This document shows, one piece after another, positions 24,666 through 48,895 of a DNA stretch of 64,000 nt (positions are counted from its first letter, which is position 1; every line of letters begins with the position of its first letter). Both the position numbers and the translations under genes were made by a program. This DNA is from Halapricum desulfuricans (GTDB taxonomy: Archaea > Halobacteriota > Halobacteria > Halobacteriales > Haloarculaceae): positions 2,465,030 through 2,529,029 of the forward strand of contig NZ_CP064788.1 of the NCBI RefSeq assembly GCF_017094525.1, read 5' to 3'. The notes under the pieces were generated by a model that saw only the letters and a list, made by a program, of their open reading frames with translations, made no database searches and was not told the DNA's origin.

Positions 24666-25199
24666 ATGAAATATCGTCACATGATCGGCGGTGGACTCGG
24701 AAACGAAGTCTTGCAGTACGTCGAAGAGTGGATTCCGGATCGGAGTTACAGATCCGAAACCAAGTTTCAGAACGACCTGCAGGAGTACTTGGACCAGAGA
24801 CTGAACGAATCTGGAGGAATGGGGCTTGACATCGGCCTAGGTGGGGGATCAGGGGATCAGATTCCAGTAAAACGTGAGCACGGGAGCGTCAACGCAGATG
24901 TCGCTGTCGGGGACGATATTGGGATCGAAATGAAACGGGACTTCACGAACAGCAAAAAGCACCGTTTGAGCGGGCAAATTACGGATTATCAGAAGGAATT
25001 CCCGTATGTGATCGTCGTTGCCTGTGGGATTTCCGACATGGACGGATGGAGGGAACTCCAGAACGAGTACGGTGGCCCGGGGGGTATCGGTATGAACCAA
25101 GGCGAAGTCCACTTCGTCCACAAGAAGAAGGAGAATTTCGGAAAAGATCCGTCCGAAGTGAATCGAGATGGAGATGGGCCTCTAGGAGGGGTACTCTGA
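24666..25199 (+). CDS. Putative PD-(D/E)XK nuclease-like protein
   Basis: The 177-residue protein has a compact core fitting the PD-(D/E)XK fold. An aspartate in NADVAVGDDIG is followed by the E-x-K triad in GIEMKRD, then GQITDYQKEFPYVIVVACG, a helix-strand unit with Q and Y as in many such nucleases. The N-terminal half holds a helical region (ETKFQNDLQEYLDQRL) and a glycine-rich turn. It is unrelated to its menaquinone neighbours and visibly less GC-rich, suggesting acquisition. Its stop overlaps the start of a 31-residue membrane peptide. Nuclease activity is an inference from the triad alone. Confidence 0.6.
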   Translation: MKYRHMIGGGLGNEVLQYVEEWIPDRSYRSETKFQNDLQEYLDQRLNESGGMGLDIGLGGGSGDQIPVKREHGSVNADVAVGDDIGIEMKRDFTNSKKHRLSGQITDYQKEFPYVIVVACGISDMDGWRELQNEYGGPGGIGMNQGEVHFVHKKKENFGKDPSEVNRDGDGPLGGVL

Positions 25200-25294
25200 T
25201 GTCCAACTCCGGACAAGGGGGCCTTCCGGATTGGATTGTCTTTCTGTTGATTCTCGTCTTTCTCGTCGGGGCTGCGATCGTCCTGTTCCTGTAA
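25199..25294 (+). CDS. 31-residue single-pass membrane peptide
   Basis: The ATG at 25199 shares bases with the TGA of the nuclease-like gene (tgATG), so the two are translationally coupled. The peptide has a short polar N-terminus (MSNSGQGGLPD) and one hydrophobic helix to the C-terminus (WIVFLLILVFLVGAAIVLFL). There is no other domain. Toxin-like, anchoring or accessory roles are all possible; none can be asserted. The coupled start and exact membrane-length helix argue that the small ORF is real. Confidence 0.55.
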   Translation: MSNSGQGGLPDWIVFLLILVFLVGAAIVLFL

Positions 25295-25330: not shown

Positions 25331-25485
25331 GAAACGCCAAGCATACGCCGAGCGAAGCGAGGCGTTTCCCCGGAATCGCCCTCACAAGGCGATTCCGGCC
25401 TTTTTCCCCAAGTTTTTCTCGCGCAGTGGTTCTCGCGCGAGCGCTTGCGGGCGCTCGCAGCGAGAACCCGAGCGAGAAAAAGTGG
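25331..25485. repeat. Hairpin element between convergent genes, related to that at 48.4 kb
   Basis: Three nested stems occur. The first pairs 25331-25338 with 25361-25368. The second, perfect over 11 bp, pairs 25370-25380 with 25388-25398. The third pairs 25409-25422 with 25472-25485 and contains an inner 9-bp stem. Shared blocks with the 48.36-48.48 kb element are gcatacgccga, gaggcgtttc, ttccggcctttttcccca and gaaaaagtgg. The element sits between the membrane peptide gene and menB and may terminate both; it lacks a flanking 3'-end duplication. Confidence 0.7.
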
Positions 25486-25486
25486 C

Positions 25487-26437
25487 TCAGTAGTGCCAGG
25501 GAAAGTCCTCGAAGTCGGGTTCCCGCCCCTCGTTGAAGGCGTCCCGGCCTTCCCTGGCCTCGTCGGTCATGTACGCGAGCCGTGTCGCCTCGCCGGCGAA
25601 GACCTGCTGGCCGACCAGCCCGTCGTCGGTGAGGTTGAACCCGTATTTGAGCATCCGCATCGCCGTCGGGGACTTGCCCGTCATCGTCTCGGCCCACTCG
25701 AGGGCCGTCTCCTCCAGTTGCTCGTGGGGTACCACCTCATTGACCATGCCCATCTCTTCGGCCTCCTCGGCGGAGTAGGTCTTCCCGAGGAAGAACACCT
25801 CGCGGGCCTTCTTCTGGCCGATCTGCTTGGCGAGATACGCCGACCCGAAGCCGGAGTCGAACGACGCCACGTCGGGGTCGGTCTGGAGGAACTTGGCGTG
25901 CTCGGCGCTCGCAAGCGTCATGTCACAGACGACGTGCAGCGAGTGGCCGCCGCCGACCGCCCAGCCGGGGACGACCGCCACTACGGGCTTGGGGATGTGA
26001 CGGATCTGCCGTTGCACCTCCAGGATGTGTAGGCGACCGACGTTCTCGGGCGCGTTGGGGTTGTCCGGCCCGTCGCCCACTTGCGGGCCGGTTTCCTCCT
26101 CGTCCGCGGCCGAGTCCCGCGGCGACTTGCTGTATTCGTACCCGGAATCGCCGCGGATCGACTGGTCGCCGCCGGCACAGAACGCCCAGCCGCCGTCCTT
26201 CGGGGAGGGGCCGTTGCCGGTCAGCAAAACGGTGCCGACGTCGGTCTGGCGCTTGGCGTGATCGAGGGCGGTCGAGAGCTCGTCGACCGTCTCCGGGCGG
26301 AAGGCGTTGCGCACCTCGGGGCGGTCGAAGGCGATCCGGACCGCGCCGACCTCGTGGGCGCGGTGGTACGTGATGTCCGAGAAGTCGAACCGATCGATCG
26401 ACTCCCAGCGGTCGGGATCGAAGATCTCAGAGACCAT
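25487..26437 (-). CDS. menB: 1,4-Dihydroxy-2-naphthoyl-CoA synthase
   Basis: The 316-residue crotonase-fold enzyme closes the naphthoate ring of menaquinone. It has the MenB-specific insert and motifs: FCAGGDQSIRG, VVPGWAVGGGHSLHVVCDMTLAS, QTDPDVASFDSGFGSAYLA and GQKKAREVFFLG. YMTDEAREGRDAFNEGREPDF closes the protein. The GWAVGGGH context corresponds to bicarbonate-dependent type I MenB by comparison with the E. coli enzyme. ATG at 26437 is preferred to a GTG two codons upstream. It is separated from menA by the nuclease-like gene pair. Confidence 0.95.
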   Translation of the reverse strand: MVSEIFDPDRWESIDRFDFSDITYHRAHEVGAVRIAFDRPEVRNAFRPETVDELSTALDHAKRQTDVGTVLLTGNGPSPKDGGWAFCAGGDQSIRGDSGYEYSKSPRDSAADEEETGPQVGDGPDNPNAPENVGRLHILEVQRQIRHIPKPVVAVVPGWAVGGGHSLHVVCDMTLASAEHAKFLQTDPDVASFDSGFGSAYLAKQIGQKKAREVFFLGKTYSAEEAEEMGMVNEVVPHEQLEETALEWAETMTGKSPTAMRMLKYGFNLTDDGLVGQQVFAGEATRLAYMTDEAREGRDAFNEGREPDFEDFPWHY

Positions 26438-26531
26438 AGCCACTCTGGGGGACGGAGGAGCAAAAAAGGTGCTCGCTCCGTCGGGAGATTTTTGCGCCGG
26501 GCGGGGATAGAGTAGAGACGATAGGTCCCCA

Positions 26532-31994: not shown

Positions 31995-32006
31995 CCGGCG
32001 GTATCA

Positions 32007-32085
32007 TACGGTCGGTTGTAAGTCTATTCCGGGTCGATCGCATCCGTTATGCGATCGTACCGGTAAATCGTTACAACCGACCGTA
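32007..32085. repeat. Nested inverted-repeat element
   Basis: Perfect 15-bp arms (tacggtcggttgtaa and its complement) lie at 32007-32021 and 32071-32085. They enclose a second perfect 9-bp stem, 32035-32043 with 32049-32057. The element fills the gap between the convergent PhoU/TrkA-C and small membrane protein genes, and its right arm abuts the latter's stop. It could be a bidirectional terminator or a miniature transposable element. Confidence 0.75.
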
Positions 32086-32343
32086 TCACAGTTCTCGCGT
32101 GAGCCGGCGTGCCTGCAACGCAACGAGAACCGCCGTGAGCAACCCGCCCAGCGACAGCGCGAGCGACGCGCCGAGCCCGAGATACCACAGTCCAGCACCG
32201 CCGGTGCCCGGCAGGACGACAAAGAAAAGATACACCAGCACCGTCACTGCGATCCCGACGCCGAACCCGCGAAGCGCGTGCTTGCGGACCTGCAGCGCCT
32301 CGACGAAACGCGCGCGACCGGATTCGGGACGGTCGTCTGACAC
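32086..32343 (-). CDS. Small two-helix membrane protein
   Basis: The 85-residue protein has a basic-acidic N-terminus (SDDRPESGRARFVEALQVRKHALRGFG). Two membrane helices follow, AVTVLVYLFFVVLPG and LWYLGLGASLALSLGGLLTAVLVAL, with a basic C-terminal tail. A GTG at 32343 is the only start matching this architecture. It lies upstream of a nested hairpin and downstream of uS2 on the same strand. No function can be proposed; many haloarchaea have similar orphan two-helix proteins. Confidence 0.6.
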   Translation of the reverse strand: MSDDRPESGRARFVEALQVRKHALRGFGVGIAVTVLVYLFFVVLPGTGGAGLWYLGLGASLALSLGGLLTAVLVALQARRLTREL

Positions 32344-38945: not shown

Positions 38946-45064
<6,119 letters not shown>

Positions 45065-45396
45065 CGGCGACGTCCGGGCCGTTTTTTCATCAACGGTTTT
45101 CGGGAGCGCGCTCGTCGCGCGACCCAAAAAGGTTGAAGGGAGTCGTTATTATGGACGTCGAGGACGACGACAGCGTCGCGTGTCTGGACGTCCTGCCGGC
45201 AGAGACACCCACAGACCAAGAGTAGCGGCGACGTCCGGGCCGTTTTTTCATCAACGGTTTTCGGGAGCGCGCTCGTCGCGCGACCCAAAAAGGTTGAAGG
45301 GAGTCGTTATTATGGACGTCGAGGACGACGACAGCGTCGCGTGTCTTGACGTCCTGCCGGCAGAGACACCCACAGACCAAGAGTAGCGAGTAGATA

Positions 45397-45477: not shown

Positions 45478-46836
<1,359 letters not shown>

Positions 46837-47358: not shown

Positions 47359-48354
47359 ATGATCTCCAAGGGTTGCGAGCAGTGTGCGAAAGGCGGCAAG
47401 ATGGTGATTTTCGTCTACGGGTACTGCGATCAGCGCGACTGTTTCTACTGCCCCCTTGGGGAGAACCGCAAGAACGTCACCGACGTCTACGCCAACGAGC
47501 GGAAAGTCGAGGAGGACGAGGACATCATCCGCGAGGCCGAGCGCATGAGCGCGATGGGGTCCTCGATCACCGGCGGCGAACCCCAGGAAGTGATGGACCG
47601 GACGACCCGCTACATCTCGCTGCTGAAAGACGAGTTCGGCGATGACCACCACATCCACCTCTATACGGGGATCACCGGCGGTCGGGAGAACATGCGCCGG
47701 CTGGCCGAGGCCGGACTGGACGAGATCCGCTTTCACCCGCCGCTCGAACAGTGGGGGGAGCTGCACGGCACCGAGTGGGAGGAGATCCTCTACATCGCCC
47801 GCGAGGAAGGAATCACGCCAGCCTTCGAGATTCCGGGCATCCGGCCTGAGACGGAGTTCCTCGAGTTCATCGACGAGGGTGCCGCGGAGTTCTGCAACGT
47901 CAACGAGTTCGAGATGTCCCACGGCAACTTCCGGCGGATGCAAGAGGAGGGCTACGAACTCCGGGAGGGCCACATGAGCGCCGTCGAGAGCGGCCGCGAG
48001 GAGATCCTGGACGTGATGGGCGACCACGAGAAGGTCTACTTCTGTACGTCCGTGTTCAAAGACGCCGCACAACACCGCCGTCGGCTCAAACGGATGGCCC
48101 GCAACGTTCGTCGTCCCTTCGACGAGATCACCGACGACGGAACGCTCGTCTACGGCAAGGCGACGGTCGACCCGGGACGCTTCGAGGAACTGGGCGTCCC
48201 GGAGGAGTACTATACCGTCAAGTCCGAGCACGTCGAGGTCGCGTGGTGGCTGTTAGAGGAGATGGTCGGGGAGGGTGACATCGAACGCGGCGAGATCGTC
48301 GAGCAGTACCCGACGGTCGATGGCACGGTCGTCGAGCGGACACCGGTGGCGTAG
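47359..48354 (+). CDS. Radical SAM protein with CX4CX2C cluster motif (COG2108-like)
   Basis: The 331-residue protein has the cluster segment VYGYCDQRDCFYCPLGENRKN near residue 20. The cysteine spacing is CX4CX2C rather than the classical CX3CX2C. SITGGEPQEVMDRT (the GGE motif) and a TIM-barrel pattern (HHIHLYTGITGG, DEIRFHPP, ITPAFEIPG, FCNVNEFEMSH) support the radical SAM fold. I relate it to archaeal proteins annotated as pyruvate-formate-lyase-activating-enzyme-like. The substrate is unknown. An N-terminal CEQCAKGG pair could hold a second cluster or zinc. Its 3' end is duplicated downstream. Confidence 0.85.
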   Translation: MISKGCEQCAKGGKMVIFVYGYCDQRDCFYCPLGENRKNVTDVYANERKVEEDEDIIREAERMSAMGSSITGGEPQEVMDRTTRYISLLKDEFGDDHHIHLYTGITGGRENMRRLAEAGLDEIRFHPPLEQWGELHGTEWEEILYIAREEGITPAFEIPGIRPETEFLEFIDEGAAEFCNVNEFEMSHGNFRRMQEEGYELREGHMSAVESGREEILDVMGDHEKVYFCTSVFKDAAQHRRRLKRMARNVRRPFDEITDDGTLVYGKATVDPGRFEELGVPEEYYTVKSEHVEVAWWLLEEMVGEGDIERGEIVEQYPTVDGTVVERTPVA

Positions 48355-48570
48355 CATACGCCGAACTGCGTGAGGCGTTTCACCGGAACCGAGTGCAACG
48401 AGGTTCCGGCCTTTTTCCCCACGTTTTTGCGAGGAGTGGTAGCCGAGAGACGCGAGGCTACCCGACGAGGAAAAAGTGGGACTGGCACGGTCGTCGAGCG
48501 GACACCGGTGGCGTAGCATACGCCGAACTGCGTGAGGCGTTTCACCGGAATCGAGTGCAACGAGGTTCCG
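48321..48570 (+). repeat. 88-bp direct repeat of the radical-SAM gene 3' end flanking a 74-bp hairpin
   Basis: Copies lie at 48321-48408 and 48483-48570 and differ by one C/T change. Each contains the last 34 coding bases of the radical-SAM gene, including the stop, plus 54 downstream bases with the imperfect hairpin ccggaa...ttccg. The 74-bp spacer 48409-48482 has five-T runs and an inverted repeat pairing ccccacgtttttgcgagg with gaggaaaaagtggg, around ggtagcc/ggctacc. The second copy ends two bases before the SMR gene stop, so the element fills the convergent spacer. Confidence 0.93.
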
Positions 48571-48571
48571 A

Positions 48572-48895
48572 TCAGTGTCCACCGGACGTGAGGTTGAGCC
48601 CGACGATCCCGACGACGATCACGCCGATGAAGGCGACGCGAGCGAGCGTCGCGGGCTCATCGAGGAGCACGATCCCGAGCGATGCGGTTCCGACGGCCCC
48701 GATGCCGGTCCACACGGCATACGCCGTCCCGACGGGCAACTCCTGGACGGCATGTGCGAGCAGGACCATACTGACGAGCAGTGCGGCGACAGTTCCGAGC
48801 GTCGGGAGCGGCTTCGAGAGCCCGTCGGAGTACGCGAGCCCGATCGCCCACGCGATCTCGAACAGTCCCGCGACGAACAGTACGATCCAGGCCAT
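48572..48895 (-). CDS. Small multidrug resistance (SugE/Gdx-like) exporter
   Basis: The 107-residue four-helix protein has the SMR pattern: MAWIVLFVAGLFEIAWAIGLAYSDG with the essential glutamate at E13, LPVGTAYAVWTGIGAVGTASLGIVLLDEP and a final hydrophobic helix. The segment SDGLSKPLPT resembles the SugE/Gdx branch, which exports guanidinium, rather than EmrE. It works as an antiparallel dimer exchanging protons. Specificity is inferred only from that resemblance. No guanidine riboswitch is apparent upstream. Confidence 0.88.
   Translation of the reverse strand: MAWIVLFVAGLFEIAWAIGLAYSDGLSKPLPTLGTVAALLVSMVLLAHAVQELPVGTAYAVWTGIGAVGTASLGIVLLDEPATLARVAFIGVIVVGIVGLNLTSGGH

Follow-up and report, generated by a model that had tools for sequence, protein, structure and literature searches.

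The element studied here lies in the window, a 64,000-nucleotide stretch of the Halapricum desulfuricans genome, between a short peptide gene on its left and menB, which converges on it from the right. A sequence-only reading of the DNA had described this gene context correctly, and had rightly stated that the site has no flanking duplication; we place the menB stop at 25487 on the minus strand and find no direct repeat there. The same reading placed the left end at 25331. The homologous element instead begins at about 25340 with AGCATACG, and its right end at 25485 is retained. The coordinates of the features are collected in Table 1.

Table 1. Features of the 25.4-kb element, the gyrA-like array and the 48.4-kb element, in window positions
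Feature	Position	Strand	Basis or remark
177-aa ORF, left of the element	24666–25199		
31-codon ORF, hydrophobic peptide	25199–25294	+	stop about 45 nt before 25340; overlaps the 177-aa ORF
Whole element, GCATACG ... AAAAAGTGG	25340–25485	+	homology start of the G001 orthologue and covariance-model match
Hairpin 1, GAAACGCC (25331–25338) with GGCGTTTC (25361–25368)	25331–25368	+	fold, inverted repeat I7
Alternative pairing of hairpin 1, ACGCC with GGCGT	25345–25349 with 25361–25365		form found in relatives
Hairpin 2, perfect 11-bp stem CCGGAATCGCC/GGCGATTCCGG, 7-nt loop	25370–25398	+	fold, inverted repeat
TTTTTC run right behind hairpin 2, candidate termination signal toward the left genes	25401–25406	+	sequence
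Hairpin 3, TTTTTCTCGC (25413–25422) with GCGAGAAAAA (25472–25481), plus GGTTCTCGC/GCGAGAACC	25408–25485	+	fold, inverted repeats
TTTTT run on the opposite strand, toward menB	25477–25481	−	sequence
menB, naphthoate synthase family	25487–26443	−	1-nt gap between its stop codon and the right foot of hairpin 3
Divergent relative at the gyrA-like gene end, unit 1 of 2 near-identical units	45083–45135	+	R2 E 0.0035; array D2
Unit 2 of the gyrA-like array	45244–45296	+	array, R2 model
S, left duplicate, comprising gene tail, stop codon, and hairpins 1 and 2	48321–48408	+	direct repeat D14
Second family element	48354–48479	+	covariance-model core 48411–48479, E 2.1e-13
S', right copy	48483–48570	+	starts 3 nt past the hairpin foot, ends 1 nt before the facing stop

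The element is built of three hairpins. Hairpin 1 can also be written as GCATACGCC...GGCGTTTC within 25340–25485, and hairpin 2 is followed directly on its 3' side by CTTTTTCCCC. The arms of hairpin 3 start with AAGTTTTTCTCGC and end with GCGAGAAAAAGTGG; the 25.4-kb copy has a 23-nt inner stem in this hairpin that is absent from its orthologue in the related genome G001. The region folds with a free energy of −90.9 kcal/mol (z = −8.76), equalled by none of 200 shuffled sequences. Alignment with the G001 orthologue (94.6%) starts at 25340 and does not extend upstream; the left end of the element thus falls on a synteny break. In the interval 24666–25294, between a menA-like gene and the element, the 177-aa ORF and the peptide gene overlap by ATGA. 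Both are missing upstream of the G001 orthologue, so gene content has turned over locally at the element's left boundary. Elsewhere in the window, at 32006–32086, lies an inverted repeat whose 38-nt arms, 82% complementary, are separated by 5 nt; by its sequence this repeat falls outside the hairpin family.

A second element is located at 48.4 kb (fold z = −3.7; own-genome BLAST against the 25.4-kb element, E = 1.9e-11). The ordered blocks that the sequence-only reading had listed as shared are indeed present at both sites: GCATACGCCGA at 25341, 48354 and 48516, GAGGCGTTTC at 25359, 48372 and 48534, TTCCGGCCTTTTTCCCCA at 25393 and 48404, and GAAAAAGTGG at 25476 and 48470. Here the element (E) stands between two copies (S and S') of the upstream gene tail, and the gene facing S' occupies 48572–48895 on the minus strand. 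The end of the gyrA-like gene (44974–45391) forms an array with a 161-nt period, consisting of two full units and a third copy that stops just past the stop codon. Each full unit contains a divergent hairpin element, and the architecture is that of the S-E-S' loci. Just past the array, 45478–46829 contains a 10-bp palindrome, CCCACCCGTG/CACGGGTGGG, and a 413-aa ORF that by eye resembles the TnpB-type protein of an IS200/IS605 element.

The 25.4-kb region belongs to a large, previously uncatalogued haloarchaeal family of structured gene-end elements of about 60–150 nt. A search of the own genome with an exact-core pattern, mismatches allowed, gives 11 matches compared with none for the reversed control, and BLAST finds several further copies. 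A covariance model (R1) was built from seven own-genome copies, the 25.4-kb copy being left out. R1 recovers this copy (25400–25485) at E values of 1.3e-6 and 2.4e-7, and model R2 does so at 1.7e-10. The element had been counted as the third of its kind; it is one of 13 copies that R1 detects in the own genome at E ≤ 0.01. Of 59 relatives, R1 also matches 50, the copy number reaching 45 per genome. The sequence-only reading had proposed such a search and named confinement of the blocks to two places as an outcome that would refute its reading; both pattern and model searches found more. In a phylum-wide sample of 148 genomes, 15 have matches, all within the own order, and no match lies outside the order at 1e-4. 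A search of the whole window against Rfam at gathering thresholds returned tRNA only, and the matches to the element at E values up to 10 are all far under the family thresholds. A known RNA family was rejected for want of an Rfam match, and no published description of the hairpin family was found in the open-licence literature.

The paired structure is conserved across the family. In 103 distinct aligned copies, whose alignment was fitted to the model and thereby leans toward structure, 93.0% of the cells are paired, compared with 78.9 ± 0.5% after shuffling and at most 60% when the partners are slid. Double-change cells number 273 against 82.9 expected, and double changes occur in 20 of 24 pairs and in every helix. 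The smaller MAFFT alignment of the model-building set gives the same picture (95.1% versus 87.3% paired). RNAalifold finds only 7 pairs in a 120-row alignment with a gappy apex, and the structure counted is the supplied one. The foot of hairpin 3 covaries as CCAC/GTGG, CGAC/GTCG and CTAA/TTAG, and as CAAC/GTTG in the gyrA-like relative. These data support selection on structure rather than sequence. The earlier view that the stems differ by compensatory change is borne out by this covariation, but part of the difference reflects replacement of a whole element, as at the menB site of G005. Some sequence is also retained: the T-runs of both strands are among the best conserved columns, with TTTTTC on the plus strand and TTTTT on the minus strand conserved across the family, and the internal-loop letters GAGTGGT...ACCCGA are conserved. 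Paired positions contain 84 G.U against 15 A.C combinations, or 51 against 15 without the two weakest pairs, an excess that hints at selection on RNA of the element strand and part of which may come from the model's own alignment.

Gene context was assigned with a codon-score gene caller for 112 elements in four genomes. Convergent genes flank 64 of these, whereas 25 stand behind the left gene, 18 behind the right gene only, and 5 between divergent genes; the location noted at the two window sites, between convergent genes or at gene 3' ends, thus holds genome-wide. Among 51 unduplicated elements, 34 have the right foot of hairpin 3 within −4 to 4 nt of the facing stop codon. This closeness is seen in other genera too, where the right foot also lies 1–2 nt from tRNA 3' ends (L048, L052, and L070). 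The 25.4-kb copy is of this unduplicated class and abuts the stop codon of menB. Elements also stand behind menB in Halobellus inordinatus (1 nt), Halobium salinum (3 nt), Halococcus morrhuae (4 nt), and Halorussus salinisoli (17 nt), and next to the menB stop in Halorussus amylolyticus, whose menB was overlooked by the gene caller. Within the genus, the element at the menB site of G001 is the same but for a shorter inner stem, whereas G005 shares the left flank and the menB stop but has a different element between them. The lack of flanking repeats had been proposed as a possible sign of an older or resolved state. No duplication is present at any menB-site element examined, in G000, G001, G005, or five species of four other named genera. 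A resolved S-E-S' locus would be expected to lose the element and leave one S, as seen in G000 at three loci that are duplicated in G001. An older or resolved state is not supported for the 25.4-kb copy, the resolved one being rejected from its orthologues.

An element of G000 (L285, G000:C1:837651–837704) is reversed, lying upstream of and antisense to mcm, and is flanked by 41-bp repeats. The other genomes of the genus that are readable at mcm (L286–L289) contain one or two elements there, with differing repeats.

In the family, though not in the 25.4-kb copy, a duplicate of the upstream gene tail is added at a preferred breakpoint, the right foot of hairpin 3. A direct repeat of upstream sequence starts 0–9 nt past this foot in 49 of 113 elements, compared with 4 of 834 random positions. 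The duplicated tail S measures 20 to about 130 nt. Its start falls inside the ORF of the left gene, 13 to 126 nt ahead of the stop codon, in 39 of 46 cases; no sequence motif marks this start except weak purine richness, and microhomology between the element end and the S start, judged by eye, is not consistent. Among the 27 non-array S' copies, the end lies no more than 5 nt from the stop codon in 12, 12 to 54 nt past it in most others, and 7 to 28 nt before it in three (differences taken by hand from the table). At convergent loci, the gap between the end of S' and the facing stop codon is often a few nucleotides, 1 nt in the 48.4-kb case. S-E units commonly form arrays, and the arrays seen contain gene tails only. 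At one gene end, the S start and the element of G003 are unlike those of G000, G001, and G005, indicating that the duplication event recurs.

Occupied and empty sites can be compared between G001 and G000, which show presence/absence polymorphism at four loci. Three have S-E-S' in G001 and a single S in G000. At the fourth, G001 has an element without S' that is missing in G000. The relation of S-E-S' to S is clean between the two genomes, and either direction of change is compatible with it. At 519247, one of the three loci, the element is also present in G005, and G002 has a gap as short as that of an empty site; loss by recombination between the S copies is therefore at least as likely as gain. 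G003, at another locus, shows hairpin 1 alone and no element. A further arrangement occupies G000:C1:701638–703496 (L074–L077): three S-E units are followed by a different gene, behind which stand two additional elements that carry the same gene tail. In G001 this place holds a single element and the two outer neighbours are adjacent, which means that gain or loss of a gene has taken place between element units.

Bacterial bidirectional intrinsic terminators serve convergent genes from one palindromic region with T-runs on both strands. The haloarchaeal family is likewise palindromic, with T-runs on both strands and convergent genes around it, but differs in the position of the T-runs, which are placed at the outer foot and within the stem arm, in its three chained hairpins, and in its conserved internal-loop letters. 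In Haloferax volcanii, intergenic transcription stops have a C after a T stretch, some stop sites are preceded by hairpins, and termination was also seen with one hairpin examined in vivo (PMC7237163, accessible part). The family resembles these terminators in the T run ending at C and the location at gene 3' ends. The accessible part of that study describes a T-stretch motif and some hairpins, but no large covarying repeated element common to convergent genes (PMC7237163).

Since TTTTTC is offered to both transcripts and T stretches mark transcription stops in H. volcanii, the element is probably a compact bidirectional transcription terminator at gene 3' ends, where RNA polymerase would stop in both directions. 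A T stretch at a gene 3' end, as in archaeal intrinsic terminators, is present, and the position between convergent genes suits an element able to serve both. A polymerase arriving from the left would transcribe hairpin 2 and then at once TTTTTC. One arriving from menB would pass the stop codon and, after 1 nt, meet CCACTTTTTCTC, the outer arm of hairpin 3; the right transcript would carry TTTTTC just past its stop codon. With a T-run at a hairpin on each side, each polymerase would meet one before entering the opposing gene. However, a stop at the first TTTTTC would leave hairpin 3, the best conserved part, untranscribed. A plain terminator thus fails to explain the covariation of hairpin 3, which needs a further role, in read-through RNA or in DNA. 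The element antisense to mcm also counts against termination.

The strand-biased G.U excess and the conserved internal-loop letters would both fit a structured 3' UTR RNA that protects or processes mRNA ends and does not stop transcription. This reading is distinctly unlikely, as the flush fit to the facing stop codon and the T-runs on both strands point to termination, and 18 elements face the right gene only. That GC-rich palindromes merely resemble one another by chance is extremely improbable. Short palindromes are abundant in GC-rich genomes, but the empty reversed control, the covariation, and the lack of matches in non-haloarchaeal genomes of the 148-genome sample led to rejection of a chance palindrome.

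The duplications invite other accounts. The gene-tail copy would most likely arise through the hairpin while DNA is copied or repaired: the nascent strand may fold once hairpin 3 is complete, slip back, and later skip the template hairpin. Slippage does not explain the 12 of 27 non-array S' copies that end within 5 nt of the stop codon, and pure slippage as the origin of S' is weakened by them. The elements could instead be small non-autonomous mobile elements that insert behind stop codons, duplicate a 20–130 nt target, and have no necessary host function. Near-identical cores occur at unrelated loci of one genome (2088866, 2654607, and 703212), G001 and G000 provide clean occupied/empty pairs at three loci, the menB site carries different elements in G001 and G005, and the end of S' often coincides with the stop codon, as though a complete element had been set directly behind it. 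Like MITEs, the elements are small, non-coding, and dispersed, with occupied and empty sites (PMC10969869, accessible part). Unlike the MITEs described there, they have no terminal inverted repeat pair, and their duplications are long and variable or absent (PMC10969869). The short, constant target-site duplication of MITEs is not seen: the lengths range from 20 to about 130 nt, and over half of the elements, including most of those without S', have no duplication at all. A simple transposon with a short target duplication was rejected on this ground. Moreover, hairpin 2 abuts the T-run whether it belongs to S or to the element, an odd coincidence for insertion; no transposase was linked to the family; and at 519247 loss is at least as likely as gain. 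A mobile element of this kind is accordingly rather unlikely. An unlikely alternative is a transfer unit of gene tail plus element, perhaps a circle, which by homologous recombination would convert X-S-Y plus S-E into X-S-E-S'-Y. It explains why S nearly always starts inside the ORF and spans the stop codon and why the homology often ends at the stop codon, and S-E arrays and single-S empty sites follow from it. It leaves the first junction of hairpin foot and S unexplained, and the near identity of S and S' in G001 makes no foreign origin visible. Each of three processes, hairpin-driven slippage, insertion that duplicates its target, and homologous transfer of tail plus element, accounts for part of the S' facts. 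We consider only tentatively, as somewhat doubtful, that the two-way terminator is itself a new kind of small mobile or recombinogenic element, its structurally defined right foot breaking and joining so that it spreads, or is exchanged between gene ends, along with a duplicate of the host gene tail. If so, the reading frame would be kept, while units amplify, swap, and delete.

Two further systems are comparable in part. Integron attC sites conserve structure rather than sequence, lie behind genes, and form tandem units. The family likewise keeps structure and not sequence, sits behind genes, and forms tandem units, but its units hold the gene tail only and its outer foot has no fixed core. 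With REP sequences it shares short, dispersed, extragenic palindromes and a proposed terminator role (PMC3733652 and PMC2817692, accessible parts). It differs from REP as described there in its larger three-hairpin build, a foot that varies with covariation, and the gene-tail duplications (PMC3733652 and PMC2817692). The GTAG or CGTC tag of REP is absent from the hairpin foot, which reads GTGG, GTCG, TTAG, or GTTG.

The two-way terminator reading gives haloarchaea a recognizable terminator family that can be searched by model and has natural variants in dozens of genomes, with which the rules of archaeal termination and 3'-end formation become directly testable. The duplicated gene tails at the hairpin foot preserve a natural record of gene-end recombination, a process of which no description was found in the open-licence literature. 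The elements also mark sites at which neighbouring gene content turns over.
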